Shown here: piece after piece, positions 44,763 through 64,000 of the stretch
Numbering within the stretch: position 1 is the first letter of the stretch
How the letters are laid out: the number at the start of each line of letters is the position of its first letter
From: Aquabacterium fontiphilum
GTDB taxonomy: Bacteria; Pseudomonadota; Gammaproteobacteria; Burkholderiales; Burkholderiaceae_C
Reading direction: 5' to 3'
NCBI RefSeq assembly: GCF_009909205.1
Contig: NZ_JAAAPN010000006.1
Coordinates: 124,001 to 188,000 of the forward strand
DNA length: 64,000 bases
Notes under the pieces: generated by a model
Database searches by the model: none
Seen by the model: only the letters and a program-made list of their open reading frames with translations
What the model was told of the DNA's origin: nothing
Position numbers and translations under genes: made by a program

Positions 44763-44772
44763 GGCCTGCCCC

Positions 44773-46083: not shown

Positions 46084-46118
46084 GGCGGTATTCCGACTTA
46101 TTCTGATTTCGGTAGAAT

Positions 46119-46140
46119 ATACATACACGCTTGTATGTAT
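46119..46140. promoter_or_regulatory. TetR repressor operator for the efflux operon
   Basis: A perfect inverted repeat: arms ATACATACA and TGTATGTAT with spacer CGCT. It lies in the 106-base divergent region and closely resembles the AcrR/TtgR operators built on TACATACA and TGTATGTA. Both promoters would be covered. Confidence 0.8.
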
Positions 46141-46189
46141 CTTGTGACCTCGGCAGCAATCCCGACTGAAAAGCAAGGACAATCCCGTC

Positions 46190-47467: not shown

Positions 47468-47510
47468 GACGGGATCATGCATCAGCCATGCTGCACTGCA
47501 CAACCCCGAT

Positions 47511-47873
47511 TCAGACGCCCCAGACGATGGGCCGGTTTTCAGCCATGGCGCGCTCGATCATCCGGATCAGGGGCCAGGCCCGCTGCCGCAAGGTGACCGG
47601 CTCGTCGGCGAAGGCCGTTTCGCGTGCCACGGGCTCGTCATCTTCCTCGCCCGCGAGCTTGTCCACCGGCAGGGCCCGCGGCTCGGCCGGCTCATTGCCC
47701 GTCTCGGCGTCGTGACTGGCGGCCTGCAACGTCGCCAGCGCGGCGGCCATGTCTTTCGGCTCAAGAATGCCAGGCTCGGACGCCGTCTTGCCGATCATGC
47801 CAAGCAAGGCCTCGGCTGAGGCGTTGAGCATGACCAGATCCGCGGCCGCTTGCGATTTGAAGGTAACAGGCAT
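47511..47873 (-). CDS. DUF1840 protein
   Basis: 120 residues, MPVTFKSQAAADLVML, with IGKTASEPGILEP and PLIRMIERAMAENRPIVWGV, matching the betaproteobacterial DUF1840 family. Cytoplasmic and function unknown. The last 46 bases upstream separate it from the coiled-coil gene, and readthrough is possible. Confidence 0.9.
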   Translation of the reverse strand: MPVTFKSQAAADLVMLNASAEALLGMIGKTASEPGILEPKDMAAALATLQAASHDAETGNEPAEPRALPVDKLAGEEDDEPVARETAFADEPVTLRQRAWPLIRMIERAMAENRPIVWGV

Positions 47874-47919
47874 GCGACCAGTTTAGCGCGCAGGGCCGTC
47901 GCCCGCCGGTGCAAGCCCC

Positions 47920-48594
47920 TCACGGGCTCAGGCGTTCCTGCTCCAGCCAGCGCGCGGCCTCCAGGCGATCGACCCAGCGCTCGGCCACGTTGTCGAGTGT
48001 CACGCGCCCGATGCCGGCAAAGGGCTCCAGGCGGGCCAGGGTTTCCTTGGGACGGTCGCTGCGGTACAGCTCGATGGCATCCCGCCCCACCTGATAGAGC
48101 TGCTGGTTGCGCTTCTCAAGCACGGCCTGGGCCTGGGTGCTGCGCTCCAGCCGCGCGCGCACGGCGGCCAGCGTGCGCTGCTGCTCGGCCAGCTCGGCGG
48201 CCTGGGCAGCCTGCTTGTCCTGGGCGGCGGCCAGTTCGTCCTTCACGCGCTGCAGTTCGGCTTCCAGTTCACTCACGCGGGCCTGGGCCGCGCGAGCCTG
48301 GGCCTGCGCGCCCGCCACGCGGCTGGCTTGCGCCCGCGAGCTCGCCTCAGCAGCCTGCTTGTCGCTCATCAGCTTCGCCTTCTCGGCATCCAGTGCGGCC
48401 TTGTCCTGCTGCAGGGTGGCAGCTTCCTGCTGCGCAGCGCGCAAGGCTTGCTGCGTTCGGCGCAGGGCCTCTCGTTCGCGGCTGCCCTTGTCCTGCGCCT
48501 GGGCGGGCTGCATCAGCGCCCCTGTCAGCAGCACACTGGTCAGCAGGCCGGTGAGCAGGGCACCCAGGGCGGCAGTCAGACGGGTATCACGCAT
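47920..48594 (-). CDS. Exported coiled-coil protein of the exoprotein cluster
   Basis: 224 residues. The signal peptide reads MRDTRLTAALGALLTGLLTSVLLTG, cleaved near AQAQ. Residues about 38-160 are a continuous Ala/Gln/Glu heptad coiled coil, and a short globular C-terminus ends the protein (VGRDAIELYRSDRPKETLARLEPF). No enzymatic motif. It lies 11 bases after the porin gene, so it belongs to the same transcript. The coiled coil may span or brace the periplasm, as an inference. Confidence 0.8.
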   Translation of the reverse strand: MRDTRLTAALGALLTGLLTSVLLTGALMQPAQAQDKGSREREALRRTQQALRAAQQEAATLQQDKAALDAEKAKLMSDKQAAEASSRAQASRVAGAQAQARAAQARVSELEAELQRVKDELAAAQDKQAAQAAELAEQQRTLAAVRARLERSTQAQAVLEKRNQQLYQVGRDAIELYRSDRPKETLARLEPFAGIGRVTLDNVAERWVDRLEAARWLEQERLSP

Positions 48595-48605
48595 GGCGGG
48601 CCTCC

Positions 48606-50357
48606 TCAGAAGCGGGCGTTGAGTTCAAGCTGAATCACATCGATGCGCTGGCGGGCGCTGCTGAGGGTGGGCACCTGCTGGCCGTCGATCGTTTCGGTGC
48701 GGCCGTCTGTCAGGTTGCGGGTACTGGTCACGCGCAGGCCGACCGATGTGCGCGGGCCGATGAAGTAACTGCCGCCCAGGGTCCAACCGGTGTAGTTGGT
48801 TCCGCCCAGATGCCAGGTGGTGTCGGTGAAGGCATCCACCCAGGCGTCGCGTTCGAAATGGCGCCAGCCCAGATAGGCCGACCAGTCGCCACGCAACTCC
48901 TGCTTGGGCGAGCCGATCTGCAGGCGGGCCTGCCAGGCAGTGGTTTTCTTCGCCAGGTCGATGTCGGCGCCCGGTTGCGCACGGCGACGGATGTCGGCCA
49001 AGTCAAAGCCGGTGTTCTCGATCACGTCCACGCTGCCGCGCACGTTGAGCCCTTCCCAGCCCTGGTAGGTGTAAGCCAGGCTGAGCGTGAGCGGACGGAA
49101 CCTGCTGGCCAGGCCCCACACGGGCGCGACGGCCGTACCACCCACTGCCTGCGTGCGGCTCTGATTGATGCGCACGAGGGTGTTGCCTCGCTGGCGCACA
49201 GCACGCTTGTACTCGCTGCCCAGGTAGCTCGAATCTGCCGAAGCAAAGGAGCCGACATCGTTGGGGTAGCGTGCGTCGAAGCGACCCTCGATGTGACGGA
49301 AGTCGTAGTAGCCCAGCCCGATGTCGAACTGCGCGTTCTCAGCCGGCTTGAACTGGGCCCCCACCTGCGCGCCATACAGCCAGCTGTCAGAGGTGTCGCT
49401 CGCAAACTCGATCAATGGGAAGGCGCCTGCCGTCACGAACACCTTGTTGGCGTCGTTGAAGGCATGGCTGGCCTTGACTGCCGCACCGTCGAAGTTGATG
49501 TCGTCCGGCCAGATCAGGTCGCCGCCAAAATAGGGGCTGGCAAAGCGCCCGGCCATGGCGGTGATGTCGGGTGTGTAGGCCTGCCACTGGATCCAGGCGC
49601 GGTCCAGCTGCACGCTGTACTTGCTGAAGTTGCCGTTGCTGCCGCCCAGGGTCTGCGAGGTGGACACGGCCTGGGCGTTGCCCGTGCTCAGGCGCACACC
49701 GGCCTTGAAGCCATAGGCCAGGTCGCTTGTCAGCCCGAAGCGGGCCCGCAGCGTCATGCGGTTGCGGCGGTCTTGCGTGTTGGTGAGGTCAGGCGACCAG
49801 GCCAACGGACCTTCGAAGGCCGGGTCGTTCTGATACGCAAAGCCGAAATCCTCAGCAGCCGACACGTTGCGCTTGTCCCAGTCCTCCGACTGATACCGCA
49901 CCCGCACATCGCCTTCCAGCGTGATGCGGTTGAGCCAGGAGGGCAAGGCGCCGGGCTGGCCCCAGCGCTCGGTTCGGGCCTGGGCGAGCACCTCCTGCTT
50001 GATCTCGTCACGCATCTGCTGGCGCACCGTCTCGGGCACATAGGGCACCCGGATCACGCCGGGCCGGCGTTCGCTCCCCGCTTCGGCCGGCGTGGGGGGC
50101 ATGGGGGCCGCAGCCGCCTGTGCGGATTGGCGCAACAGCTGATCGGCCTTCTCCTGCGACAAGAGGCCGCCATCGACCAGTGCCTTGATCAGGTTGAGCG
50201 TGGTGGCGCGCAGGCGCTCCAGCTCGGCGCGCTCGTCAGCGTGGGCCTGCAGCGGCACGAAGGCGCAGCACAGGGCGGCTGCGGCCGCCGCGGTGGCCGT
50301 GGCAGGGCGAAGGCGGAACATCAGTCGGGACAACGTGGGACGCATGGTGGTCTTCAT
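48606..50357 (-). CDS. Putative outer-membrane porin of the exoprotein cluster
   Basis: 583 residues. The signal peptide ends at LQAHADE. The mature N-terminus is a short helical coil (ELERLRATTLNLIKALVDGGLLSQEKADQLL), as in the putative-porin (Porin_5) family, and the rest is amphipathic beta-barrel ending RIDVIQLELNARF with a C-terminal Phe. It lies 60 bases after the tonB-like gene and 11 before the coiled-coil gene. It is not a TonB-dependent receptor: no plug domain is seen. It may provide an outer-membrane partner for the TonB-like protein. Confidence 0.85.
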   Translation of the reverse strand: MKTTMRPTLSRLMFRLRPATATAAAAAALCCAFVPLQAHADERAELERLRATTLNLIKALVDGGLLSQEKADQLLRQSAQAAAAPMPPTPAEAGSERRPGVIRVPYVPETVRQQMRDEIKQEVLAQARTERWGQPGALPSWLNRITLEGDVRVRYQSEDWDKRNVSAAEDFGFAYQNDPAFEGPLAWSPDLTNTQDRRNRMTLRARFGLTSDLAYGFKAGVRLSTGNAQAVSTSQTLGGSNGNFSKYSVQLDRAWIQWQAYTPDITAMAGRFASPYFGGDLIWPDDINFDGAAVKASHAFNDANKVFVTAGAFPLIEFASDTSDSWLYGAQVGAQFKPAENAQFDIGLGYYDFRHIEGRFDARYPNDVGSFASADSSYLGSEYKRAVRQRGNTLVRINQSRTQAVGGTAVAPVWGLASRFRPLTLSLAYTYQGWEGLNVRGSVDVIENTGFDLADIRRRAQPGADIDLAKKTTAWQARLQIGSPKQELRGDWSAYLGWRHFERDAWVDAFTDTTWHLGGTNYTGWTLGGSYFIGPRTSVGLRVTSTRNLTDGRTETIDGQQVPTLSSARQRIDVIQLELNARF

Positions 50358-50417
50358 TTCAAAAGTTCAAACGGCCTGTGCGGGCATAAGCGGGCGTGTG
50401 CGGGCCTGCGCAGCGCA

Positions 50418-51134
50418 TCAGCCACTGATCGGATCGACCGACAGACGCAGTTCCATGGGCTGGGGCAGGCCGGCCGGCGGCACCAGGCGAAAGCCTTTGC
50501 TGGCATCGGCCATGGCGCTGCGCACGCGGTCTTCGGCCGCACGGTCGTTGAGGCCCAGCACCTCGAAGCGTTCAATGCGGCCCTGCGGCCCCACCCACAC
50601 CTGCAGTCGGGCGCCCAGACGCACGATGTCCTTGGGCAGCGCCCGATCAAGCTCCGACTTGAGCAACTGCTGCGCGCTGCGGGCATAGAAGGTGTATTTG
50701 GCTCGGTCAGAGGCGCTGGGCGCGCCGCCGGCACCGCTGCCCACCGGGCCACCCTGATACTCGCTGGTGATGGTGCCTGAGCGGAAGGCGCTGGGCCCAT
50801 CGCCCGCGGGGCCATCCATCTTCAGGGCCTCGGCCTGCTGCGGCGGGGGCGTGTCGACCTGCTTGGGCTGCTCGGTCTGCACCACCTGCTTGGGCTCTTC
50901 CTTGGGAGGCTCGGGCTTATCTTCCTTCGGCGGCGGCGGTGGCGGCGGCGGGGTGTCGGGCAGCACGGCAATCTTCACCGTCTGGCGACCGACTGGCTTG
51001 CTGCCGCCCTTGCCCATCAGCGCGTGGATGCCCCAGCCCATCAGGGCCATCAGCAACAGGCCCACCAGCCACGGCAGTGCACGTTGCCAGACAGGCGCAC
51101 TTTGAGAGCGGTGTGCAGGTGCAGCCATGCTCAT
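50418..51134 (-). CDS. TonB-like energy transducer
   Basis: 238 residues. One N-terminal membrane anchor (WQRALPWLVGLLLMALMGWG), a Pro-rich periplasmic spacer with a run of eight prolines and Lys/Glu-Pro repeats, then a TonB C-terminal-like domain (KSELDRALPKDIVRLGARLQVWVGPQGRIERFEV). The start at 51134 overlaps the ExbD stop as ATGA. Together with ExbB and ExbD it should transmit proton-motive force to an outer-membrane partner. Confidence 0.88.
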   Translation of the reverse strand: MSMAAPAHRSQSAPVWQRALPWLVGLLLMALMGWGIHALMGKGGSKPVGRQTVKIAVLPDTPPPPPPPPKEDKPEPPKEEPKQVVQTEQPKQVDTPPPQQAEALKMDGPAGDGPSAFRSGTITSEYQGGPVGSGAGGAPSASDRAKYTFYARSAQQLLKSELDRALPKDIVRLGARLQVWVGPQGRIERFEVLGLNDRAAEDRVRSAMADASKGFRLVPPAGLPQPMELRLSVDPISG

Positions 51135-51532
51135 GTCCCGATGCGCGAGGTCACGAGGCCCATGGGCACCTCGATCTTGTTGCACAGGTCGATCACCTCG
51201 ACCACCCTGGCGTACTGCGTGCGCGCGTCGCCCTTGATGGCCACGCTCATCTTGGGATCGGCGGCCTTGGCCTGCAGCAGCTGCGCCTCCAGTTGCGCCA
51301 GCGTGACGCTGACGCCGTTGGCCATCAACGTGCCGTCGGGCAGTACCTGCACGATGCGCAGGTCATGCTGCTCGGTGCTGGGCTTGTTGCTGGGCTTGGG
51401 CAGGTTGATGGACAGGCCCTGCACCGAGGCCGTCGTCATCAGAATGAACACCACGAGCAGCACATAGGCCAGATCCAGCATCGGCGTGACGTTGATGCTG
51501 TCATAGGGCTTGGTTTCGTTTTGAACCTGCAT
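51131..51532 (-). CDS. ExbD-family protein, second copy
   Basis: 133 residues. A single membrane helix, INVTPMLDLAYVLLVVFILM, contains the proton-carrying Asp. The periplasmic domain carries the family end with SVAIKGDARTQYARVVEVIDLC. It lies 9 bases after the first ExbD and overlaps the tonB-like start. Confidence 0.92.
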   Translation of the reverse strand: MQVQNETKPYDSINVTPMLDLAYVLLVVFILMTTASVQGLSINLPKPSNKPSTEQHDLRIVQVLPDGTLMANGVSVTLAQLEAQLLQAKAADPKMSVAIKGDARTQYARVVEVIDLCNKIEVPMGLVTSRIGT

Positions 51533-51541
51533 GGGGCCGTC

Positions 51542-51949
51542 TCACTGCATGCGTTTGGTGGCCAGGCCGATCTCGGTGATGTCGAGCCGCTTGGCGATTT
51601 CGAGCACGGCCATCACCTTCTCGTACTGGGCAGCGGCATCGGCCTTGAGCACCACCGGCAGGTTGGGGTTGGCTGCCTTGTACTGGGCCAGGCTGGTCTG
51701 CAGCTCGTCCAGGCTCACCGGATAGGCGTCCAGATAGACCTGCCCCTCTGCCGTGATGGTGATGCCGCGCGTCTGCGGCTTGGCCAGATTGCCCGCCGCC
51801 TGGGTCAGCGGGGGCGAGACCTTGACGCCCTGCACTGAGGCCGTCGTCATGATGATGAAGACCACCAGCAGCACATAAGCCAGATCGAGCATGGGCGTGA
51901 CGTTGATGTCGTCATACGCCTGCAGATCGCCCTTGAGGTCTCCGGCCAT
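51542..51949 (-). CDS. ExbD-family protein, first copy
   Basis: 135 residues with the helix INVTPMLDLAYVLLVVFIIM and its channel Asp. Its periplasmic domain differs from copy 2 (LPVVLKADAAAQYEKVMAVLEIAK). Two different ExbDs beside one ExbB suggest a mixed channel. Confidence 0.92.
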   Translation of the reverse strand: MAGDLKGDLQAYDDINVTPMLDLAYVLLVVFIIMTTASVQGVKVSPPLTQAAGNLAKPQTRGITITAEGQVYLDAYPVSLDELQTSLAQYKAANPNLPVVLKADAAAQYEKVMAVLEIAKRLDITEIGLATKRMQ

Positions 51950-51989
51950 ATCTTGCTCCGTTGCCTTGCTACGTTGCGCCTGCGCCAGA

Positions 51990-53684
51990 TCAGCGTGCGC
52001 CGTGGGTCTCGGCCACGCGCGTCACGAACTCGTCGACAAAGATGGCCATGTCGGACGAGATGTTCTTGATGCGCGCAGCCAGGTAGTTGTAGCCAAACAG
52101 CGCCGGGATCGCGACCGCCAGGCCGGCCACGGTGGCCAGCAGCGCCGCGGCAATGCCCGGGGCAATCGCATTGACGTTCACATCCCCCGCGGCCGCAATG
52201 GCTGCAAAGGTGATCATCACGCCCACGACCGTGCCCAGCAGACCCAGGAAAGGGCCGCCCGAGATGGCAATGGTCAACAACACGATCTTGCTGTTGAGCG
52301 TGTGGCTTTCGCGGATCAGGTCGGCATCGACCGCGGCCTTGACGGCATCGATCGACGCTCCCGACAGCGGCGCAGCACCGGGCTGGCCGACATCGCGCTT
52401 TTGCAGCTCGCGCAGGCCGGCGGCATACAGGCGGGCCAGCGGTGCGTGCGGTACATCGCCGGCCTGCACCGTCATCACGTCGCGAGCGCTACGGAAGGCT
52501 TCGAGGAAGCGGGAGTTGTCCTTGTCTGCACGGACAACCAGCATCGTCTTGTCGTACATGACCCACGCGGCGATCACGAACATCACGGCCAGGATCACGA
52601 TGACCACCCAGGCGTCGACCGTCAGGTTGTCAATCAGGATCTGGAAATGACCCGGCTCTTCGCTGGACGCGGCGGCCGATTCTTCCGTCTGCGTCACGGC
52701 CATGACCAGCTTGGCATCGGCGCTCTGCGCAGCATGCATCAGCCGCACATGCTCAGCGCTGCGCACGGTGGACGCCAGCTCAAGCTGGTCCAGCAAGCCG
52801 CTGTAGCTGCTGCCCAGCACAACCTCAGCCGCAAACGGCTGGCCGGCGTCGGCCACATCGGCCTCGGCCGCCTTGGCACCGTTGACGTACAGCGTGGCCT
52901 TGCCACTGCCCAGCGTGAGCGCCACATGGGCCCAGGCGGACGCGGGCAGCTCGCCCCCGGCCACCGTCGTGTCACCCAGTCGCGCCACGATCTGCGCGCC
53001 CTGCAACGCCAGCTCAAGCGGGCCGTGGCGCAAGACTGTGCCGGCCGTCGCTGGCTTGATCCACATCGCCACGCTATAAGGCCCGGTTGAAGGGGCCACA
53101 GGCTGGTCGCCCATGTCCAAAGCGACAGGCTGTTGACCATCCAGTCGCAGCGCGGCGCCGATCATGCCGTTGGCTTCACGATTCACAGCGACGGCCGATC
53201 TGCGCTGCCCCGTCACATCGGCCGTCGGGCCATTGTTCTCGGCGAACATGAATGCCGCCGTTGTCTGGTCATCGAACAACGCGGGCGAGCTCACCTCCGC
53301 GGCAGCCTGCTCATTGCCAGCATAGACATACACCTGGTTCTGATCACTGGCCGGCATGACGGAGGGCAGCTGAACCCAGATCACAGCCAGTTCATTGGCG
53401 CCATCAAAGCGCTCGACCCAGAACTTCAGTGGTGTCTTGTCGTCGGCAGCGACCACGCGCAGGTCGCTGCCATCGGGCTTGGCACCCAGGAAATCAAAGT
53501 TGCCCGAATGCAGTCGAACCGGCACCACCACCCCGCTGAGGGCCTGCGTGGTCTGGACACCTTGTTGCGTGGTGTTGAGCGTGACTTGCGTGCGTTGTTG
53601 CCAGTCGCTGTTCCACCAGGCGCTGGCCAGACCCGGCCAGGCCACGCAAGCCGCAAAGAGGGCGAGCACATGTTTGCGCATCAT
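51990..53684 (-). CDS. DUF2341-LamG-ExbB fusion, proton channel with periplasmic lectin-like domain
   Basis: 564 residues in three parts. A signal peptide (residues 1-22) is followed by a DUF2341 domain (about 23-125, starting WWNSDWQQRTQVTL) and a LamG/concanavalin-like domain (about 195-305, YSVAMWIKPATAG and AWAHVALTLG). A membrane helix (359-377) then leads into an ExbB/TolQ proton-channel core (about 380-564) with two further helices, LGLLGTVVGVMITFAAIA and GIAAALLATVAGLAVAIPALFGYN. ExbB normally lacks any such periplasmic domain. It lies 111 bases after the exoprotein gene and 40 before the first ExbD gene. The lectin-like part could bind the exoprotein or cell-wall sugars. Confidence 0.9.
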   Translation of the reverse strand: MMRKHVLALFAACVAWPGLASAWWNSDWQQRTQVTLNTTQQGVQTTQALSGVVVPVRLHSGNFDFLGAKPDGSDLRVVAADDKTPLKFWVERFDGANELAVIWVQLPSVMPASDQNQVYVYAGNEQAAAEVSSPALFDDQTTAAFMFAENNGPTADVTGQRRSAVAVNREANGMIGAALRLDGQQPVALDMGDQPVAPSTGPYSVAMWIKPATAGTVLRHGPLELALQGAQIVARLGDTTVAGGELPASAWAHVALTLGSGKATLYVNGAKAAEADVADAGQPFAAEVVLGSSYSGLLDQLELASTVRSAEHVRLMHAAQSADAKLVMAVTQTEESAAASSEEPGHFQILIDNLTVDAWVVIVILAVMFVIAAWVMYDKTMLVVRADKDNSRFLEAFRSARDVMTVQAGDVPHAPLARLYAAGLRELQKRDVGQPGAAPLSGASIDAVKAAVDADLIRESHTLNSKIVLLTIAISGGPFLGLLGTVVGVMITFAAIAAAGDVNVNAIAPGIAAALLATVAGLAVAIPALFGYNYLAARIKNISSDMAIFVDEFVTRVAETHGAR

Positions 53685-53796
53685 TGACTACTTTCCATCG
53701 ATCGGTTCATCGGCCCGTCACGGTGGCCCCGCCTGCCCGGATCACGACCGGACGCGGCATCTTGGGCAACGCCCGTGACAGGATCACGACAGCCCT

Positions 53797-56700
53797 TCAG
53801 GGCTGACGCTTTTTCTTCTCTTCTTCGTCTTCTTCGTCACCGCCGAAGCCCAGGAAATCCAGCAGCAGGCGGCGGCGCGGTGTCGCGGCCGATTTGCTGT
53901 TTTCATCGGCCTGGGCCGGACCGGCCGCGGTGGCAGATTGACCCAGATCGCCCACGCCCGTGGCCGCGTTGCCGACCACCGGCGGCGGCGCCACGTTGCC
54001 ACCCGGTATCTGGATGTCGTTGCCGCCCACGATCACCGGCGCGTCCAGCGTCAGGCTGCCCGAGGTTTTGATCCCAGCCTCACCCGCGTTGATCTCGCCG
54101 CGGGGCGCGAACAGGTAGAGGCGGCTGTCGGCGTCCAGCGTGGCAATGCCCGAGCCCGAGAACGAGCCCGTGGTGTCGACCTGCAGCTGGCCGTCGACGA
54201 TGCGGAACACCGGCGCGGGCGCACCGATCACCGTCTTGGAACCCTTGCCTGCATCGATGTTGCCGTTGCTGGCCCACAGCAGCATGTCGCCCGACTTCAC
54301 CACGAACACCCGCGACTGGTTGACCTCGATGCTGTCGCGCACCACGCCGGCAATGCTGCCGCCCGACGTGGTCACGATGCCGAGGCCCGCTGCCACAGTC
54401 GAATCGACCGTGCCGGTCAGGCGACCCACGTTCATGCCGCCATGCGGCGTCATCACCGTGATGTCGCTGTTCTGCTGCGTCTTGATGCTGCTGGAGCCCA
54501 TGCGCAGGCTGCTGTTGGGCTTGCTGCCGGGGAAGACCGTGGCCAGCGCGCTCATGCCCCGCTGATAGGCATCCAGCTTGGCCTCGCCCGGCGGCTGCTT
54601 GGCAGCCGCCGAACCGGAGGCAATCAATTCGCGCTTGAGCACGGTGTTGGCAAACAGCAGACGATGCTCGGCGCCCAGCTCGGCAAAGCGCTGCAGGGCG
54701 GCGTCGGCCGTGAGGCCCTGTTCGCCCGTGCGCCGCGCGACATAGCTGATCAATGCCTGCACTTGTGCGCCATCGCGCTGTGCGGCCATCGCAAGGGCCG
54801 TGCTGCGTTGCACGTCGGCTGCCACGGCCTGCTGCCAGGCCGGCGCGAGGATGTGCCCGATCAGCGCGCCTTGCTCGCGCGCCGGCAGCTTGTCGAGCAA
54901 GGCCGTCGCCGCCGCCTGGTCCAGGGCTGGCTTGGCCTCACGCCCCTGCATGAAGCTCAGGACGGCCTGCTCGTAGGCGCCATCGCCCACCAAGGCACGG
55001 GCGCGCGCCAACTGCTGAGCGAAAGGCGCGCTGGCGTAAGCCTGTGCCTCGTCCGAGCCCAGCGTGGGCACCGCCTCACCCGCCTGCGCGGCGCGAAGCT
55101 GCGCATACAGGTCGGCCGCCCAATCGGCCACACCGGCACCGCCCAGCAGATGGAAGTAGCGCGCCTCGGCTTGGCCGTAATCGGCTGCTCCCGGCCTGAC
55201 ACCCGCCAGCACCGTCAGGCTCGCGCTGCCTTCGGGCAAGGCACCGTTCTCGCGGTTGCCACTGGTCTCCAGACCGCCGGCCAGCGCGTTGTTCACGTCA
55301 CGCCCTGCCACCACGAGCACATCGCCCGGGCCGCGCACCACGGCCCGGCCTGCAGCCGAGACCATGTTGACGTCGCGGCCGGCCTGAATCAGCGTGAGCT
55401 CGTTGGCGCCCTGGTGCTGTGCCACGAAGCCCGGCAGGTTGACATCGCGCCCGGCGATGATGCGTGCCGCATCGCCCAATTCGGCACGCAGGCTCACGTC
55501 GCCTTGCTCGGCCACCAGCCGGATCGGCTCGCGCCGGCCCTTTTCTGTGCTGCCGGGCTGCACCATGTTGCCATTGGCGTCCGCAGAGTCCAGGCGTCCG
55601 ACGACCGCATCGTTGCTGCCCATCCAGACCACGCCATTGCCGTAGAGCGACTCGGGTGCCACGTTGACCGACCGCACCGTCAGGTCCTGCGCGGCGAGCA
55701 CGCTGAGTCGTGCCCCGTTGTCCTGGGGCATCTGATTCAGGCGCGCGGCCAGGATGCTGCCCGTGGGCGCTGCCAGCAGGCTGTCAGAGGGCAGCAGGCC
55801 AACCGTGGCACGGGTCGACGCCACATCTGGCGGCAGCACGTCGTGGAGCAGCAGGTCGCCCGATACCGCCACCAGCGACAGGCTGGCATCACGGCCCAGG
55901 CCGGTGATGCCGAACGAGCGGTTGCTGTCGTTGGTGCCATCGCCGCGCTCATGCAGACCCGCTTCGGTGATCAGGTCGACCAACGCGTCCTGAGCGGCGC
56001 GCATCGTCACCTGGGTGTTCTCATACAGCAGCGAGGCACCACCGCGTTCTGCGGTGCCATCGATGTTGAGGCCCGCCGTGATGCGCGCTGTCTGGCCACC
56101 CACCTTGGTCATCAGGCCGGCGATGTTGCCGTCGGCCTGAACCTGAACGCTGCCGCCCCCGTAGCGGCGCACCACGCCGGCGGCGTCCTTGTAGCCACTG
56201 GTGGCCGTCACGAAGCCCATGTTGTGCACATCGGCGCCGGCCTGGGCCCGGATGTCGCCGCCCCCAAACGTGGCCACGCCCATGTTGAACAGGTCATAGC
56301 GACTCCACCACGACTGGCTCTTGCTGCTGCTCACATCGGATTTGTGGAAGGTCCAGTCGCTGACAAAGCTGGGCGTCGTGATGACCTCGGTCCGCACGCT
56401 GCCGCCCGCCTGGATGGCAATGCTGCCGCCGTCGCGCATGAAAGGCGTCTGCCGGGTGGCGTTGATGCCCGCCCCGCGGGTGATGAGGTCGCGATGCAGC
56501 GCCGCGCTGGTCGGGTTGCCTTGGCCGAAACCCAGCGCACCGGGCGCTTCCAGCTCGTTGGCAAGTCGCCCTGTGGTGTAGACCGTGGCCTGGTCGTTTT
56601 CCAGCACCACATCACCAGCTGCCGCCACGCGGATGTCCCCGGTGGTGCTGCGCACAAACACCTTGGCCGCACCGCCCACATCGCCGATGCGCACGCTGCC

Positions 56701-59700
56701 GTCGCGGTCCGCGCGGGTGCGCATCACATCGGCGCTGTCCAGATCGGCCCCCGCGACCAGGTTGATGCTGGCGCCGGCGCCGATCGGCAGATCAGCCGGG
56801 GCCACGCGCAAGGCATTGTTGATCGTGGTGTTGGCTGCCGTGCTGGTCTGGGCCGTGCCCGGCAGCGGGCCGTTGATGAAACCGCCGCTCAGGCTTGCCT
56901 GGATGCCCAGGTGGCCTGCGGTGCGCACGGTGAGGTCAAACGGCGTGTCGGTGCTGGCCTGCACAACGAACTGGCTGCCGCTGGACTGGCGCACCAGCTG
57001 CGTCAGGTTCCACGCCGTGCTCAGGGTCAGGTCTTCGGCGGACTGCAGCACCTGAGCCGACTGGATGGCCCGGGTCGCACCTGCGGCGCGCCCGTTGAGC
57101 ACCTGGTTCAGCGTGTCTTGCGTGGCGGCAGCGCGCTGGAAGGCCTCGCTGCGCGCCTTGACGGCGTTGAGCTGCGCCTGCCCCAGATCGGACACCTCAT
57201 TGCGCTCCTCGCCTTGCACCGTCACCCTTGCCAGGCCAGTGAGCTCGGCTGCCACGGCGGCCACTTTCACATTGCCCGCGCCGGTGGCCGCGTCGGCATC
57301 GGCCGGATCGCGCAGGCCCGCGCGCAGTGTCAGGCTGCCCCCTTGACCGCCTGTGCCGCCGCTCGCCTTGACCGTGCCGCCTGCCTGCAGGCGCACCACG
57401 CCGTCACGGCTGGCCAGGCGGATGTCGCCGCCCGTCTGGCCTGCGCCTGTGGCCGACGCGTCGATCAGGGCGCCCGTCGGCGCCGTGTCCGTCGCGCCCT
57501 GCCCCAACACCAGATCGCCGGCCGCGCTGACCTGCACGCGCCCGCCTCGGGCGCCCGACGCATCCAGCTGGCCATGGATCACCACCTGGCCCCCGGCCTC
57601 GGCATCTGCCGGGCGGTCGGCCACCAGCGTGATCTCTTGTGCCCGCAGCGTCTTGCCTTCCGACAGCGTCAGCCCTTGGCCATCGCGTTGGTGCACCGTC
57701 CACTGCTGGGTGGCGTTGTGGCGCACCGGCCCGCCCGCCCCCTCAGCCGCGCGCTGTGCTGCGCCAGCAAGGCGGTCCACGAGCGCGTCCAGACCCGAGC
57801 CGCTGTGGGCATCGACCGTGAGCGTGCCACCGCGTTGCCCGGCATCAGACAGCAAGCGGATATCGCCCTCCACCGTCACCTGTCCTTGTTGCGCAATCAG
57901 GCGCACCTCGCCCGCATCGGCGCCCGCCACACCGGCGGCGGCCGAGGCGCTGAGCACCGCGCCCTGCGCCAGATGAACACTGCCCGCATCGGCCTTGGCC
58001 TGGATCAGGCCGGCAGCGATCGGCACCTTCACGCCATCGACCGTCCAGACGTGGCCATCGGCGCGTGTGGCCGACCCAGCGGCCAGCACCACATCGCCCG
58101 TGGTCGCCTGCAGCGTGACGCTGCCCGCACGGGCGTCGATGACGCCGCCCTGTTCGACCGACGCCCCGCGCAAGCCGATCCGGGCCCCCAGGCCCGGGGT
58201 GGCGGCGTTGATGCCGGTGGCCTGTGTGGAGGTCGGCGTGGACGCCTGCACCGATGGCGCCGGCACGCCAGCGACCCTCACGCGGCCCGAACCCGCGTCG
58301 AGCTGTCCCACGGCCGCAGCGGCGGCCGTGATGGAGCGCGCCGACACCGTCAGGTCACCGTCGGCCGTCAGACCGGAAGTGAGCGCGCGGTGCTGCGTGC
58401 GCACCGTGAAGTTAATGCCGTCTTCGGTGCGCGCATCGGCATAGCCGTCGCTGCGCGCCTGCGTGACCAAGGCGGTCTCAGCGACACGGCGGCTGGCGAA
58501 CACCACGCTGCCGGCGGCGTCCAGCTCGGTCTGGCCTGCCCCGTTGAGCGCGGTCACACCATCGCGGAACCAGATGTGCCCGTCCTGCCCCGCTTCGCCG
58601 GTGGCGCGCAGCGTGAGCGCGGCCGTACCACCGGCCACGGTGCCGGTCACGCCGGTCGTGTTGCTCAGGCCAACGGAGCCGGCCGTGATCACGTTGCGCC
58701 CACCTGCGGCTTGGCGCAGTTCGGGCGTGTCCAGCGTCAGCGCCTGACGCACCGACAGGTCGGCCCCGTCCGCCAGCGTGATGCCGCCAAAGGCGCGCAC
58801 CGTCAACCGGTCAGCCTGGGCCAGCTGGTCCAGCAGCTGACCGCTCAGCACCAGGGCGCGCTCGGCCTCTCCATCCGCCGCGCCTGGCCCCAACTGCCCG
58901 ACATGCACCTGGTCGGCCGCGATCACCACGGCCTTGGCCTGCAAGGCGGCACTGCCCGCCACCTGCGTGCTGCGCGTGCCCTCCACCACGAGGCTGCCGC
59001 CGGCCAGCGTGCTGCCTGCGCCCACGCTGACTTCGCCGCGCTCACGCGACAAAGACTGCGCTTCGGTTGCGGTGCGGCGGCTGGCCACCTTGCTGTCGGT
59101 GCTCACGCGCACCAGGGCGCCATCGCCCTGCACCGTGATGTCCTCTGCGGAGCCCGACGTGGCCGCTGCGCGGATCACCGCGCCATCCTTCACCGCGACA
59201 CGCTCGGTGCCCGCCAGAATGACATCGCCCAGCGTGAGCGCGCTCGCTGCGTCGTTGGCCAGCGTCACCTCGGTGGCGCGCACATCGATCAGGCGGCTGC
59301 CATCGGCCGCCTGCGTGCTGCGCAAGCCGCCGACCAGCAGCGAGTCGACCCCCGTACGATTGAGTTGCCCGACATCGAGCAGCAGCGTGTCACCCGCCTG
59401 CGCGGTCGTCAGCGTGCCCCCGACCTGAATCTTGCCGGATGCCACGTTGAGCTCGCCCCCGCGCCCGTCCTTGGCGCGCTTGAACGCCAGATCGCCCGCC
59501 AGGCTCACCTTCTGCGCGGCGATGTTCAGCGTGCCGGCATCCATGGCGCGCCGGGGCGCCGCCACGCCGTTGCGATCGGCTTGCGCGTTCAACAGGTTGT
59601 CGAACGTGGTGGTCGTGATCTCACTGAAGCGCAAGGCCTGATCCCGCGTCAGCACCTCGAAGCTTGCCGCAGGCGCGGCGGGCAAAGCGCCACCCACCGT

Positions 59701-62700
59701 GCCCACGCTGGCACCCACCCGCACGGCACCGTTGGCCTGCGTGATGGCTTGGCCCATGGCCAGCGGTGTGTTGTCAGCCGTGCGGCGGATCAGGTAGCCG
59801 CCTGCCAGCAAGGCATAGCGTGCCGGCAGGACGGTGTAGGTGCCGGCCGGCACCGGGCCGCCCTCGCCAAAGGTGATCTGGCGCGAGGCGCGCGTGTCGA
59901 GCACGCTGTCAGTCAGCCCCGACTGGGCCAGCAGGTCCGGGTCGATGCCGCCCAGGCCCTTGACGCTCGGGACGATGGCAAAAGTGCCCGTCTCGAACGT
60001 GCCCTGGAAGATGTCTCGGCTGCCACCTGGGCCCGGCACGAACTCCCACCCCACGAGTTGGCCACCGGCCGACAGGTCAAGCTGGGCGCCGGCGGCGACC
60101 GTGACCGCGCCGCCCGTGGCGTCCAGCGTGATCGTCTTGGCCGGTGGCGCGCTGATCTCGCTGCCATTGAGCGACCATCGGGTGCCGCCTTCGGTGGTCG
60201 TGCCATAGGGCACGATCAGGCCATCACCCGAGACCGACACCCGTGCGCGCTCGGTCAGCGTGATGCTGGGCGCCTGGAGCTCGATCTGACCAAAGGGCGC
60301 CCGCAGCACGCCGTCGACGGTGATGGCGTCGGCCTTCAGCGTCAGGCTGCCACCAGCAGACAAAGGCGCTGGCGCCTGAGGATGGCCGCCCTGCACCGTG
60401 ATGGCCTGCGCCCCCGCAGGCCCGCCCGCGGCGACCAGTGCATACCGCGTGGCCGTGGCCACGTTCACCTGCGGCGCGTCCAGCGTGACCTGCCTCGCCG
60501 CCGTCGTCAGGCTGCCATCGCGGCGCGATGCCGACAGCGCATGGAAGCGGATCTCGTGCTGCGCCTTCAGCGTGAGCGCATCGACGCCCTGCGTCGTGTG
60601 GATGCCAGACACGTCGACCACGCCGCCTTCGAGCGTAAGCTGGCCGCCTCCACCCGTGGCCGCCGCGGGTGCCTGGGTCTGCGTGTGGGTGCGGGCCAGA
60701 CGGCCTGCTGCGGCAAAGCGGGCCGAGCCGCCGTCGCGAACAGCCAGCGTGGGCGCGTCCAGCGTCATGTCGCCGGCCACCCCGAGGTTCACCGTGCCCA
60801 CCGAGGCAATCTCGTCGCTTGACGACAATCGCAAGTGCGCGAAGCCGCCCGCCTGGATGGCGTCGGCCGACACGCGCAAACTGCCGGGCTGGGTGGCCGA
60901 GGCCACCGCCTGCTGCTGCACGACGAGGCTGGCCACCGGGCGCAGGCTGCTGCCACCATCGGTGATGGTCAGACCCAGGCTACCGCCTTGCGCCCCAGCG
61001 CCACCGGCGCGCGCTTGCAGATCGGCCGACAACGCTGCGCCGCCCGCGCCCACGGCCACGCTGATGTGCCCCCCGTCCGACGCCACATCGGCGCGGCGCG
61101 TGCGCACCGCCCCGCTCGCGGCCTGGGTGCGCACGTCGATGCGCGCCTGGGTGCCATTGGCCGTCAGTTGCGCCTGCTGGACGCCCCCCGTGCCGTCCAC
61201 CGTCTGCTGGAACACCACCGGTGTGGTGGCAGCCAGGTTCTCGGCCGCGCGCACCTCGATGCGCCCGCCGGCCAGCACCTCGCCGAACCGCTGATCACCC
61301 ACATTGGTGGCCGACAGCAGCGTGGTGCCGGAGACATCGAGATGGGCGCGGCTGCCGAATCGGTAGATGCCTGTGGCACGCGCATCGACCTCGGTCGTGC
61401 TGTCCGTGCCCACCAGTGCGGTGGTGATGGTGCCGCCCGCCGCGCGCACCGTGCCATCGACCACCAAGGCCTTGCCACCACTCAGGGTGACGCTGCCGCG
61501 CGGCCCGGCATCCACCACACTGCCTTCTGACACGGTCAGCGCGCCATTGAGGGCCGCGGCGCCGCCCGCGTTGTCGCGGTACCCAGACGAGCGCAGGGCC
61601 AGCGTGCGCGTGGGCGCCAGGTTGTCAGCCTGCACGATCATGTCGACGCGATCGGCCAACCGGCTGCCGGTGGCGGCGCTGAGCAGACTGGTCCGGGCCT
61701 GCCATTGGCCCACCTGAGGCCGAATGCGGGCATCGGCGGCCACCGTCGTGCGCCGTACGCCATCGAGATCGAACTGCGTGAAGCCGCCCTGATGGAAGAA
61801 GGCGCTGCCGAGCACGAGGCCATCGACTACATCGCCCTGGCGCAGGGCGGGGCCGCTGCCCACGATGTCCAACTCACCCACTTTGAGCGTCAGCTTGCCG
61901 CTACGGGCATCGCCCACATCGTTGAACGCCTTGACCAGCGTGCCGGCCAGCGCGTGGCCGCGGAGCGTGGCGTCGAGGTGGACGGCATCGAAACGGCCAT
62001 CGCGCGCGGCCGCCTCGGCGTTGGCTGACAAGGTGATGTCACCCGCCCGCGTGCCACGCACCGTGGCATTGGGCGCCACCGTGGCACCCCCGGACACATC
62101 GATGGCCGAACCCGACTGCAGGTCCAGGCCCGCGGCAGAGCGCAGGCTGACACTGCCGCCCGCCACCGCGCCGCCGGCTTGCACACCATCACGCCGCTGG
62201 TTGACCACATCCCCCGCCACATCGATGCGGCGGCCCGCGGCCAGCGTGATGCCCCCCGCCTCAGGAACAGTCGGCAGCACCGAGGCGGTTTGAACCGACA
62301 CCGCTGCCCCGGCGCCGGTGATGTCCCCGCCGAGGTAGACGCCCTCGTCACCCGCTGCGTGAACCGTCAGGCGACCGGCCCGCTGCAGGCGCAGGTGCGC
62401 GCCATCATCGATGCGTACACTGCCCGCAGAGGCGACGCTGATTTCGCCCGCACCGCTGAGGTTGAACCAGTCTGCCGAAATGCTGGTGCGGCCAGGCAAC
62501 GGTGCAGCCAGCGGATCGGCCCACAGATCGGACGGCGGCTGTGCCGCGCCTGGCGCACGCACGGTCAGCCCGTTGAGCAGGTTGCCCTGCATGCTCAGGC
62601 CCAGGCGCACAGCGGCCTGCGCAGCACGTGCATCGAGGCCAGCCCGTTGGCGAGCGCCTTGTTGCACCTCGGCACGCACGCTGCCGTCGAGCACGGCCGA

Positions 62701-64000
62701 GGGGGCATGGATGGTGAGACGGCCGCCATCACCGCCCTGAACATAGCCCGCCTCGACGCGGCTGCTGGCTGCAACCGGCTGAACCTTGTTGCCGAAACGC
62801 GTGGCGTCGGCAGGCTGGTAGCCCGACACGGCCACCACCTGCACATCGGTACGGGCGTTGTTGACGGTGTAGGCCTTGCCATCTGCGCCCAGCAGGCGCG
62901 TGGGGCTGACGACAGCCTCGGTGAACGTCACCTTGCCGCCGGACACATCGATCTGGCTGCCCTGCTGCAGCAGCACGCCGCCCGTGGCCACCAGGCTGAC
63001 CTGCCCGCCCTTGGCCATGCGCTCACCCGCTGTGGTCTGGATGCCGTCCTTGTAGCCCTGGTGCGTGGCTGCCTCCAATACCGCGGGCGCGCTGCGCGTG
63101 TCGTAGGTGACCTTGGTGTCCTTGAGCGCGCCGTCCTTGAGGAAAGGGTTGCTCGCCAGGTCGCCATTGCGGATGAGCTCGGTGGTCACGAAGTGACGCG
63201 CCACCGAGGCGGTGGTGTCCACCGTACCCGACACATCGATGACCGCGCCCTTGCCCATCACGAAGCGGCCCTCTCCGGCTGCAGCGCCCAGGTAGGCCGT
63301 GTTCACCGCACCAAGATCGTTGACCAAGGGGTCGTAGTTGGGCACCAGCTCGGCCCGCACATTCACATTCGCTGCGGGCGCCGTGATGCGCGCGCCGTCC
63401 AGTCCGTCTCGTCCGCCTTCCATCACGATGTGCTGGCCACCCAGCTCAATGCGTGACATCGTCATCTGCACCGAACCGCTGGACGCCTGGCTGTTGTCGG
63501 CGGCCACTTCGATGCGGCTGCCGGCCGTGAGCGTGAGCGTGCCCGCCGATTCGGCACGCACGTCGTCGCCTGCGCCCACGCCCGAACGGGCGAGCAGGAA
63601 GACCGAGCCGTTCTCTTGCACACTCGTCGTGGCCCGGATGCGGCCGGCCTGGCGCACGGTGTGGGCCATCAGCGTCGCGTTGCCGCGCTCGGTCAGGATC
63701 TGCCCCAGGTTGTGCACTTCACCGTCTTGGTTGTCCACCTCGAACAGAAAGCCGCGCAGAACCGACAGGTTGGGGTTGACCTCAGAGGCGAACAGCTTCT
63801 CTCGGTCCGGTGTCTTGATGTAGACCGCTTCGCCACCCAACAAGGCAGTCTGCCCGCCCGGCGTGGTGATCTCGCCAGCGTTCTCGACCTTGCGGGCCAT
63901 CAGCCAGACGCGGCCGCCCGAGGGAGTCGTGATCTTGGCGCCCTGCTCCACCAGGACATAGTTGTCAGGGTGATCGAAAGTGACCAGGTCGTCGTCGGAC
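53797..64000 (-). CDS. Giant filamentous-haemagglutinin-family exoprotein, N-terminus beyond right edge
   Basis: At least 3,384 codons and open through the right edge; the GTG at 63951 is not the start. The visible N-terminal part is the end of the haemagglutination/two-partner-secretion region (GGQTALLGGEAVYIKTPD, NLGQILTERGNATLMAHTVRQ). Thousands of residues of Gly/Ala/Val/Ser-rich beta-helix follow, of the GGxVxLxA and AGRDVN type. I see no cysteine. The C-terminal region fits DUF3739 (AGRDVNLPGFVAQHQGANELTLIQAGRDVNM), is interrupted by a helical stretch (residues about 2905-3140), then returns to beta-helix and ends in a charged tail, DEEDEEEKKKRQP. No terminator lies before the ExbB-fusion gene. 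No TpsB transporter is visible in the window. Confidence 0.93.
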   Translation of the reverse strand, partial: SDDDLVTFDHPDNYVLVEQGAKITTPSGGRVWLMARKVENAGEITTPGGQTALLGGEAVYIKTPDREKLFASEVNPNLSVLRGFLFEVDNQDGEVHNLGQILTERGNATLMAHTVRQAGRIRATTSVQENGSVFLLARSGVGAGDDVRAESAGTLTLTAGSRIEVAADNSQASSGSVQMTMSRIELGGQHIVMEGGRDGLDGARITAPAANVNVRAELVPNYDPLVNDLGAVNTAYLGAAAGEGRFVMGKGAVIDVSGTVDTTASVARHFVTTELIRNGDLASNPFLKDGALKDTKVTYDTRSAPAVLEAATHQGYKDGIQTTAGERMAKGGQVSLVATGGVLLQQGSQIDVSGGKVTFTEAVVSPTRLLGADGKAYTVNNARTDVQVVAVSGYQPADATRFGNKVQPVAASSRVEAGYVQGGDGGRLTIHAPSAVLDGSVRAEVQQGARQRAGLDARAAQAAVRLGLSMQGNLLNGLTVRAPGAAQPPSDLWADPLAAPLPGRTSISADWFNLSGAGEISVASAGSVRIDDGAHLRLQRAGRLTVHAAGDEGVYLGGDITGAGAAVSVQTASVLPTVPEAGGITLAAGRRIDVAGDVVNQRRDGVQAGGAVAGGSVSLRSAAGLDLQSGSAIDVSGGATVAPNATVRGTRAGDITLSANAEAAARDGRFDAVHLDATLRGHALAGTLVKAFNDVGDARSGKLTLKVGELDIVGSGPALRQGDVVDGLVLGSAFFHQGGFTQFDLDGVRRTTVAADARIRPQVGQWQARTSLLSAATGSRLADRVDMIVQADNLAPTRTLALRSSGYRDNAGGAAALNGALTVSEGSVVDAGPRGSVTLSGGKALVVDGTVRAAGGTITTALVGTDSTTEVDARATGIYRFGSRAHLDVSGTTLLSATNVGDQRFGEVLAGGRIEVRAAENLAATTPVVFQQTVDGTGGVQQAQLTANGTQARIDVRTQAASGAVRTRRADVASDGGHISVAVGAGGAALSADLQARAGGAGAQGGSLGLTITDGGSSLRPVASLVVQQQAVASATQPGSLRVSADAIQAGGFAHLRLSSSDEIASVGTVNLGVAGDMTLDAPTLAVRDGGSARFAAAGRLARTHTQTQAPAAATGGGGQLTLEGGVVDVSGIHTTQGVDALTLKAQHEIRFHALSASRRDGSLTTAARQVTLDAPQVNVATATRYALVAAGGPAGAQAITVQGGHPQAPAPLSAGGSLTLKADAITVDGVLRAPFGQIELQAPSITLTERARVSVSGDGLIVPYGTTTEGGTRWSLNGSEISAPPAKTITLDATGGAVTVAAGAQLDLSAGGQLVGWEFVPGPGGSRDIFQGTFETGTFAIVPSVKGLGGIDPDLLAQSGLTDSVLDTRASRQITFGEGGPVPAGTYTVLPARYALLAGGYLIRRTADNTPLAMGQAITQANGAVRVGASVGTVGGALPAAPAASFEVLTRDQALRFSEITTTTFDNLLNAQADRNGVAAPRRAMDAGTLNIAAQKVSLAGDLAFKRAKDGRGGELNVASGKIQVGGTLTTAQAGDTLLLDVGQLNRTGVDSLLVGGLRSTQAADGSRLIDVRATEVTLANDAASALTLGDVILAGTERVAVKDGAVIRAAATSGSAEDITVQGDGALVRVSTDSKVASRRTATEAQSLSRERGEVSVGAGSTLAGGSLVVEGTRSTQVAGSAALQAKAVVIAADQVHVGQLGPGAADGEAERALVLSGQLLDQLAQADRLTVRAFGGITLADGADLSVRQALTLDTPELRQAAGGRNVITAGSVGLSNTTGVTGTVAGGTAALTLRATGEAGQDGHIWFRDGVTALNGAGQTELDAAGSVVFASRRVAETALVTQARSDGYADARTEDGINFTVRTQHRALTSGLTADGDLTVSARSITAAAAAVGQLDAGSGRVRVAGVPAPSVQASTPTSTQATGINAATPGLGARIGLRGASVEQGGVIDARAGSVTLQATTGDVVLAAGSATRADGHVWTVDGVKVPIAAGLIQAKADAGSVHLAQGAVLSASAAAGVAGADAGEVRLIAQQGQVTVEGDIRLLSDAGQRGGTLTVDAHSGSGLDALVDRLAGAAQRAAEGAGGPVRHNATQQWTVHQRDGQGLTLSEGKTLRAQEITLVADRPADAEAGGQVVIHGQLDASGARGGRVQVSAAGDLVLGQGATDTAPTGALIDASATGAGQTGGDIRLASRDGVVRLQAGGTVKASGGTGGQGGSLTLRAGLRDPADADAATGAGNVKVAAVAAELTGLARVTVQGEERNEVSDLGQAQLNAVKARSEAFQRAAATQDTLNQVLNGRAAGATRAIQSAQVLQSAEDLTLSTAWNLTQLVRQSSGSQFVVQASTDTPFDLTVRTAGHLGIQASLSGGFINGPLPGTAQTSTAANTTINNALRVAPADLPIGAGASINLVAGADLDSADVMRTRADRDGSVRIGDVGGAAKVFVRSTTGDIRVAAAGDVVLENDQATVYTTGRLANELEAPGALGFGQGNPTSAALHRDLITRGAGINATRQTPFMRDGGSIAIQAGGSVRTEVITTPSFVSDWTFHKSDVSSSKSQSWWSRYDLFNMGVATFGGGDIRAQAGADVHNMGFVTATSGYKDAAGVVRRYGGGSVQVQADGNIAGLMTKVGGQTARITAGLNIDGTAERGGASLLYENTQVTMRAAQDALVDLITEAGLHERGDGTNDSNRSFGITGLGRDASLSLVAVSGDLLLHDVLPPDVASTRATVGLLPSDSLLAAPTGSILAARLNQMPQDNGARLSVLAAQDLTVRSVNVAPESLYGNGVVWMGSNDAVVGRLDSADANGNMVQPGSTEKGRREPIRLVAEQGDVSLRAELGDAARIIAGRDVNLPGFVAQHQGANELTLIQAGRDVNMVSAAGRAVVRGPGDVLVVAGRDVNNALAGGLETSGNRENGALPEGSASLTVLAGVRPGAADYGQAEARYFHLLGGAGVADWAADLYAQLRAAQAGEAVPTLGSDEAQAYASAPFAQQLARARALVGDGAYEQAVLSFMQGREAKPALDQAAATALLDKLPAREQGALIGHILAPAWQQAVAADVQRSTALAMAAQRDGAQVQALISYVARRTGEQGLTADAALQRFAELGAEHRLLFANTVLKRELIASGSAAAKQPPGEAKLDAYQRGMSALATVFPGSKPNSSLRMGSSSIKTQQNSDITVMTPHGGMNVGRLTGTVDSTVAAGLGIVTTSGGSIAGVVRDSIEVNQSRVFVVKSGDMLLWASNGNIDAGKGSKTVIGAPAPVFRIVDGQLQVDTTGSFSGSGIATLDADSRLYLFAPRGEINAGEAGIKTSGSLTLDAPVIVGGNDIQIPGGNVAPPPVVGNAATGVGDLGQSATAAGPAQADENSKSAATPRRRLLLDFLGFGGDEEDEEEKKKRQP

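Follow-up and report, generated by a model that had tools for sequence, protein, structure and literature searches.

A probable Pdt-type two-partner secretion locus with its own Ton module in Aquabacterium fontiphilum, and a possible proton-driven force on its exoprotein

The window analysed here is a stretch of 64,000 nucleotides from Aquabacterium fontiphilum (contig 6, positions 124001-188000; the genome assembly comprises 3.65 Mb in 37 contigs). Towards its end lies a set of seven genes, coding for a filamentous-haemagglutinin-like exoprotein (TpsA), an ExbB fusion protein, two ExbD proteins, a TonB-like protein, a porin and an exported coiled-coil protein (Table 1). An earlier, sequence-only reading of this DNA had described seven genes in this order on one strand, and the open reading frames of the minus strand together with the Pfam domains bear this gene set out. 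The spacings it gave are reproduced at 40, 9, -4, 60 and 11 bases, except for the first gap, which is 112 and not 111 bases long. Pfam matches of the window proteins reach 92.5 bits for DUF3739, 53.9 for DUF2341, 51.0 for Laminin_G_3, 98.6 for MotA_ExbB, 90.3 and 86.0 for ExbD, and 489.9 for Porin_5; the coiled-coil protein displays no Pfam match above the cut-off. Coordinates of the tonB-like gene are taken from its ATG, an alternative GTG start being located at 51185. The N-terminus of TpsA extends beyond the window and contains a TPS domain (PF05860, 83.7 bits, cut-off 33.5). The tpsB gene, likewise outside the window, ends 15 bases upstream of tpsA (POTRA_2 68.7 bits, ShlB 79.1 bits). Since tpsB and a tpsA with TPS domain stand side by side, the locus holds a complete two-partner secretion (TPS, type Vb) system, by which TpsA is predicted to be secreted.

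Table 1. Features of the TPS-Ton locus, in transcription order (window positions).
Feature	Position	Strand	Content
tpsA, filamentous-haemagglutinin-like exoprotein, 3621 aa whole	53797..64000 (stop 53797, open at window end; start at contig position 188662)	(-)	TPS domain N-terminal, DUF3739 C-terminal
tpsA-exbB gap	53685..53796	(-)	11-base-spaced TGTCAC-type repeat (possible PhoB box or second promoter)
exbB fusion	51990..53684	(-)	Signal-peptide-like start, DUF2341, LamG, then MotA/TolQ/ExbB channel (Pfam)
exbD paralogue D1	51542..51949	(-)	Pfam ExbD
exbD paralogue D2	51131..51532	(-)	Pfam ExbD
tonB-like	50418..51134	(-)	Single hydrophobic stretch near the N-terminus, spacer rich in proline, end of TonB_2/TonB_C type (domain found in relatives)
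Porin_5	48606..50357	(-)	N-terminal helices with RVPYVPE-type conserved peptide, then ~16-strand barrel
Exported coiled-coil protein	47920..48594	(-)	Conserved C-terminal stretch; final gene of the set

We are highly confident that this locus is a Pdt-type TPS system with a private Ton motor. In Pseudomonas aeruginosa the VreI regulon comprises pdtA, phdA, pdtB, exbB2, exbD2, tonB4, the putative porin gene PA0696, PA0697, and YbjN, PpiC and LysR genes (PMC7035377). A study of 2009 describes TPS genes, exbBD and PA0696 homologues that accompany PUMA3 in several genera (PMC2729926). The gene combination is therefore already known. The sequence-only reading knew of no described function for it, and as to function this statement stands, inasmuch as the literature searched yielded no description of what purpose the published pdtA/pdtB-exbB2-exbD2-tonB4-PA0696 combination serves. 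In 2020 exbB2-exbD2-tonB4 was still termed an uncharacterised putative TonB system (PMC7035377). DUF2341 on ExbB-like proteins is mentioned as a domain of unknown function (PMC12505986), and no mention of DUF3739 was found in the open (non-subscription) literature searched.

Domain comparison was performed for P. aeruginosa itself on ExbB, and otherwise on a Klebsiella quasipneumoniae cluster of the same order. P. aeruginosa carries a DUF2341-LamG-ExbB fusion (P0289, 904 member sequences) with 36% identity to the window ExbB over 605 alignment columns, and gene order suggests that P0289 corresponds to PA0693. The Klebsiella cluster (plasmid pKqq_SB98_1, 114727-152472) is of Pdt type and carries, in this order, a receptor-like gene, a sigma factor, a FecR-like gene, haemagglutinin, ShlB, ExbB, ExbD, TonB, porin, a small protein, YbjN, an isomerase, a small gene and a LysR gene, which is the published P. 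aeruginosa order except for the hxc, lap and phdA genes. Its ExbB has the DUF2341-LamG-ExbB architecture, its exoprotein combines TPS and DUF3739, its porin matches Porin_5 with 685 bits, and its TonB lies above the cut-offs of TonB_C and TonB_2. Because pKqq_SB98_1 is typed as conjugative, a Pdt-type system can move between families. The Pdt set is complete in the A. fontiphilum locus, with a DUF3739 TpsA, TpsB, DUF2341-ExbB, ExbD, a TonB-like protein, Porin_5 and a small exported protein.

Membership in this set is remarkably constant across genomes. In an even sample of 274 genomes of the class, 18 have DUF3739 above the cut-off (one further genome, G223, was left out as its DUF3739 match lies under the cut-off). 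Full-length Porin_5, defined by E below 1e-100 so that partial matches (E 2e-34 or weaker) are excluded as other porins, occurs in all 18 DUF3739 genomes vs 1 of the 256 others (Fisher 3e-27; 4e-26 without the genome of the window). DUF2341 is found in 17 of the 18 vs 7 of 256 (Fisher 1e-20; 1e-19 without the window's genome), in these 7 mostly in frames of other sizes. Where both domains occur, they are separated by at most 3 kb in 13 genomes and by at most 25 kb in 3, and are located on separate contigs in one (G101), in which DUF2341 belongs to a 1632-residue frame that may not be a fusion. A TPS domain is present in 94 of the 274 genomes; full-length Porin_5 accompanies it in 16 of 16 genomes with DUF3739 vs 1 of 78 without (Fisher 4e-17), so that the TPS domain alone does not bring the Ton/porin module. 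The single exception (G104) has a TPS frame of only 272 residues, and the two DUF3739 genomes without a TPS match (G070 and G221) have tpsA frames that are cut short. As a separate observation, two TPS-domain matches fall into huge open frames, of 29,206 residues (G053:C1:290030-290788, plus strand) and 18,106 residues (G106:C1:301724-302407, minus strand).

The same pattern is observed within the genus. Of 41 genomes, 35 carry the fusion and 33 carry DUF3739, all 33 being among the 35 (p 6e-6), and the 6 genomes without the fusion also lack DUF3739. On one contig, 32 fusion/DUF3739 pairs lie 278-6488 bases apart; one pair is split over contigs. The sequence-only reading had coupled exoprotein and ExbB fusion, and they are indeed rarely found apart, since DUF2341 or the fusion is present in all but one of the DUF3739 genomes of the class and in all of those of the genus. 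These genomes are related to each other, which makes the Fisher and p-values too small, yet the pattern repeats at two depths, class and genus. Exoprotein, ExbB fusion and porin belong together, with an association far above chance. Two genus members, G282 (C467:1391-3094) and G303 (C78:93916-95616), possess a second copy of the ExbB fusion, 40-41% identical.

Presence of ExbD and TonB was scored at loci and not genome-wide, using the best 80 of 565 confirmed loci from a profile scan of genome contigs. By profile, exbB and exbD are recognised in 80 of 80, the TonB-like gene in 74, the porin in 72, the coiled coil in 67 and tpsA in 72 (two loci, L012 and L103, derive from a single record, by which a porin and an ExbD enter the counts two times). 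Some gene of the block from exbB to the coiled coil is missing from 14 loci, 12 of which end at or just after the last recognised gene; in the other two, the coiled coil (L044) or the porin (L105) is not recognised. Among the 8 loci without a recognised tpsA, DUF3739 is present in all 5 genomes searched, adjoining exbB in L033 and in L043 (the locus of Aquabacterium commune DSM 11901), while L034, L038 and L105 lie outside that search. Gene order varies, in that the exbB block may follow either tpsA or tpsB, precede tpsB, or lie at a distance of 14-23 kb.

The ExbB topology suggests that DUF2341 and LamG, which precede the first helix of the channel, would be periplasmic. Residues T485 and T518 of ExbB are invariant in 14 aligned sequences, and the membrane aspartate is retained in 150 of 150 ExbDs, which were aligned without selecting for it. 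Two ExbD copies are present in 54 of the 80 loci and one in 26. First and second copies part almost perfectly in the ExbD tree (54/55 on each side, support 0.99-1.0), by which one old duplication accounts for D1 and D2. The TonB-like protein of the window is assigned as such because its relatives match TonB_2 (21 of 25 aligned members) or TonB_C (10 of 25) at E<=0.05; a search of the PDB with its profile retrieves TonB and TolA at E 0.04-0.7 only. The transmembrane helix of TonB carries a histidine. No histidine occupies an invariant or near-invariant column of the alignment of the 25 TonB-like sequences, several rows of which begin past the helix.

An ExbB with two ExbDs next to a surface fibre may also suggest a motor that moves the fibre along the cell, as in an adhesin-based gliding machine. 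Two ExbD-type subunits per motor are also a feature of AglRQS. However, the 26 loci mentioned above have a single ExbD, and GltJ scores 16 bits in the TonB-like protein and reaches 22 bits at another place of the genome, compared to a cut-off of 450. GldM gave no match, in a search that lacked any control match and shows little. The gliding analogy drawn by the sequence-only reading hence finds no gene support, other gliding genes not having been searched with a working control, and we regard surface motility as highly improbable.

DUF3739 exoproteins end with an Ala/Ser-rich linker followed by a peptide of the form (T/S)V(E/D)(V/F)(L/I)GFG, which in the window TpsA reads LLLDFLGFG and is followed by charged residues. 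With frames cut by the locus end left out, the strict pattern is displayed within the last 110 residues of 60 of 84 DUF3739 TpsAs (59 of 83 distinct tails), compared to 25 of 3950 internal windows and 9 of 3950 shuffled tails. It is found in none of 16 complete TpsAs taken from places at which DUF3739 gives no match (20 were fetched, 4 of them cut by the stretch).

These data may suggest a mechanism by which the Ton module acts on the exoprotein. A review on two-partner secretion asks what drives TpsA, no energy source existing at the outer membrane, and describes the C-terminal tails of HMW1, HxuA and CdrA as remaining in the periplasm (PMC5422565). With the C-termini of these other TpsA proteins being described as periplasmic, a DUF3739 tail would come within reach of the TonB-like protein. 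TpsB would pass TpsA outward, N-terminus first and with no proton power required, while the C-terminal DUF3739 region with its conserved end peptide would stay in the periplasm. The target of the proton-driven Ton set would then be this tail, or else the adjacent stalk of the porin, in order to hold or release the fibre. By sequence, the ExbB fusion, the ExbDs, the TonB-like protein, the stalked porin and the coiled coil are inherited together with TpsB and the DUF3739 TpsA. Since a TpsB is encoded, translocation itself has no obvious need of proton power, and in this respect the proton-driven secretion previously proposed is not supported. We put forward a proton-driven force on the periplasmic tail tentatively, as a possibility that falls somewhat short of being probable. 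A wider version, in which a whole branch of type V secretion would be proton-powered, with a TonB-box-like C-terminal peptide pulled by a private Ton motor and a stalked porin to hold, stretch or free the fibre, seems to us rather unlikely.

If this wider version is true, a Ton system would here work outward, with a protein exported by the cell itself as its cargo. The energy question posed in the review meets here a class of TpsA that, in the 18 class genomes sampled, is always paired with a full-length porin and, in 17 of them, with DUF2341 as the mark of a proton-channel fusion. Two undefined domains, DUF3739 and DUF2341 on ExbB, gain a common context. The role becomes testable through the tight linkage, through the tail peptide that these TpsAs have in common, and through hosts like Aquabacterium, which is not known to be a pathogen.

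Several points weigh against a force on the tail. Contact of the TonB-like protein with TpsA or the porin is a prediction, and the window's TonB-like protein itself has no Pfam match (neither TonB_2 nor TonB_C). The strict tail form is missed by 24 of the 84 DUF3739 TpsAs, and the patterns for tail and porin peptide were written after viewing the sequences, in proteins that are related to one another. P. aeruginosa mutants with insertions in tpsA, tpsB, PA0695 (the tonB homologue) and PA0696 kept the virulence of their parent in zebrafish (PMC2729926), which is the only test of the Ton part of that cluster found in the literature; this absence of an effect neither helps nor excludes the tail mechanism. 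Two fragmented genus genomes (G294 and G314) carry the fusion with no DUF3739 match. Furthermore, pdtA of P. aeruginosa is transcribed from a promoter separate from that of phdA-pdtB-exbB2D2-tonB4 (PMC4971064). Finally, the neighbouring genes for type II secretion, a PstS-like protein and a glycerophosphodiester phosphodiesterase (GDPD) point to phosphate scavenging.

The separate promoters in P. aeruginosa (PMC4971064) and the two genus genomes just mentioned are also what would be expected if the Ton module served another outer-membrane receptor and were merely co-expressed with the TPS genes. Signals in the tpsA-exbB gap point in the same direction. The 112-base gap contains the repeat CTGTCGT-GATC-CTGTCAC, which is near the Pho box consensus quoted in PMC2225411, and close relatives display TGTCAC repeats at the same 11-base period in this gap. 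A relaxed GTCAY pattern of 11-base period, written after seeing some of the gaps, reaches 9/10 in 10 of 30 gaps (1.1 expected). Period 11 is prominent among periods 6-30, and without the window and six relatives it falls to background (3 gaps). Of 30 such gaps with lengths of 60-330 bases, one from the window and 29 from relatives, 9 contain a perfect stem of at least 8 bp (0.4 expected), the window not being among these 9. The sequence-only reading had seen no terminator, and indeed the minus strand of the window after tpsA is without a terminator-like site with a T-run; between 46700 and 64000 there are 7 terminator-like sites vs 6.7 in shuffles. A single transcript is nevertheless doubtful in view of the gap repeat, the hairpins after tpsA in several relatives and the separate P. 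aeruginosa promoters. No Sigma-70 promoter was found in 46700-64000 (0.9 expected), and an Rfam scan over 40000-64000 gave no match. However, mere co-regulation does not sit well with the near-exclusive co-occurrence over 274 genomes and the joint absence in the genus, nor with a gene order that shifts while membership holds, and we consider it improbable.

The porin bears on both the tail mechanism and its main rival. Its AlphaFold model (50 sequences, pLDDT 82) consists of N-terminal helices and about 16 strands, with no plug. In the PDB it is matched best by OmpM1, an attachment porin of Veillonella (8byt, E 4e-13), with the phosphate porins OprP and OprO among lower porin matches. An RVPYVPE-type peptide is located just ahead of the third helix in 80 of 82 frames (relaxed pattern), and near-invariant arginines are found on the first strands. 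TonB-dependent transporters are 22-strand barrels with an N-terminal plug. The porin was considered as a candidate for such a transporter and ruled out by strand number and lack of a plug.

According to the main rival explanation, the locus captures phosphate compounds in a manner similar to HxuABC: a cell-bound TpsA fibre would bind, or help cleave, phosphate compounds freed by type II-secreted enzymes, and the product would be imported through the porin, which the TonB-like protein would gate or recharge, so that proton power is spent on uptake and not on TpsA. A precedent exists in HxuA, a TpsA partnered with a TonB-dependent transporter (PMC5422565). The homologous Pseudomonas cluster is expressed in phosphate starvation via PhoB and VreI (PMC7035377, PMC4971064), and in P. 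fluorescens SBW25 the Hxc type II system is grouped with a secreted DING protein related to PstS and with a 4083-aa haemagglutinin-like gene (PMC2225411). This grouping matches the neighbourhood here. Upstream of tpsB, on the same strand, lie genes for a 494-aa exported protein and a PEP-CTERM protein (L006:3507-5787, minus strand), a LuxR-type regulator and type II secretion genes (secretin, E, F, G), beyond which a GDPD gene follows on the opposite strand. The PHO-like repeat of the tpsA-exbB gap, the porin arginines and the OprP and OprO fold matches may be read in the same sense. Type II genes are found in the fetched flanks of 8 of the 80 loci, a number that is too low because these flanks extend no further than 10 kb.

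The 494-aa protein may be PstS-like, with moderate support: PBP_like_2 is detected in 2 of 12 members (best 3.8e-5), and hhalign against PstS gives E 3e-4 with a probability of 38%, although the best of five control profiles (exbB, E 0.004) comes within a factor of about ten. Its AlphaFold model (6 sequences, pLDDT 34) was too poor for a fold search. By profile, 12 of 17 class genomes have the protein in the stretches fetched, G262 only as an edge piece. PHO boxes are not enriched over all loci, with 9 matches of at least 12/14 in 2.02 million bases of relatives vs 6 in shuffles, and no general Pho control is claimed. A PHO-like box (11/14) is located at L006:16195-16212 between the divergent gspG and GDPD genes; about one such match per 20 kb is expected by chance. 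Uptake is further weakened by the porin, which is not a TonB-dependent transporter and whose best fold match is an attachment porin, and it leaves the conserved TpsA tail unexplained. Altogether, we judge uptake unlikely, while taking it more seriously than the other rivals.

A sensing role represents a further alternative to a force on the tail. The Ton module would monitor the TPS port or fibre and report its state to regulators such as VreA-VreR-VreI, force being a signal and not work. On plasmids of Klebsiella and Methylosinus, and also in Pseudomonas (PMC2729926), the cluster has receptor-like, sigma factor and FecR-like genes as neighbours. However, FecR has no match in the whole genome of the window (VreA and VreI were not searched), so that the PUMA3 scheme lacks its VreR part here, and yet the module is kept whole. 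Envelope sensing therefore appears quite improbable, more so than mere co-regulation.

Compared to what is published on the Pdt cluster, new observations are the strict linkage of DUF3739 with the porin, the common TpsA tail peptide, the single old duplication of ExbD, and a genome without a FecR-type regulator. Downstream of the set, below position 47920, a DUF1840 gene is followed by a histidine phosphatase gene. Elsewhere in the window (40082-46801), ordinary RND-type efflux genes (outer-membrane efflux protein, AcrB-type transporter, membrane fusion protein) are accompanied by a divergent TetR-family gene.

Like the gliding motors AglRQS of Myxococcus and GldLM of Flavobacterium, the locus links a surface adhesin system with a proton channel, which belongs to the same superfamily as theirs; it differs in that the window's genome has no GltJ above the cut-off, within the limits of the gliding-gene searches given above. 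The window porin, as modelled, resembles Veillonella OmpM1 in combining a barrel with a helical stalk, whereas it displays no SLH domain among its Pfam matches, is 15% identical and sits in a Ton-TPS locus. As in Haemophilus HxuCBA, a surface-kept TpsA is tied genetically to a TonB-linked outer-membrane protein, which is a TonB-dependent transporter in the case of HxuC and a porin of about 16 strands with a private ExbB-ExbD-TonB set here (PMC5422565). From the PUMA3 system of P. aeruginosa the window's genome differs by lacking a FecR (VreR-type) match in the search described above. In contrast to the P. aeruginosa Pdt cluster, tpsB, tpsA and exbB are contiguous, two ExbDs are present, a LuxR gene lies upstream, and the set is followed by DUF1840 and histidine phosphatase genes and not by YbjN, PpiC and LysR genes. 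Both clusters nevertheless share a TPS pair with a giant exoprotein, a DUF2341-LamG ExbB, ExbD, TonB, a putative porin and a small exported protein, with type II secretion genes close by.

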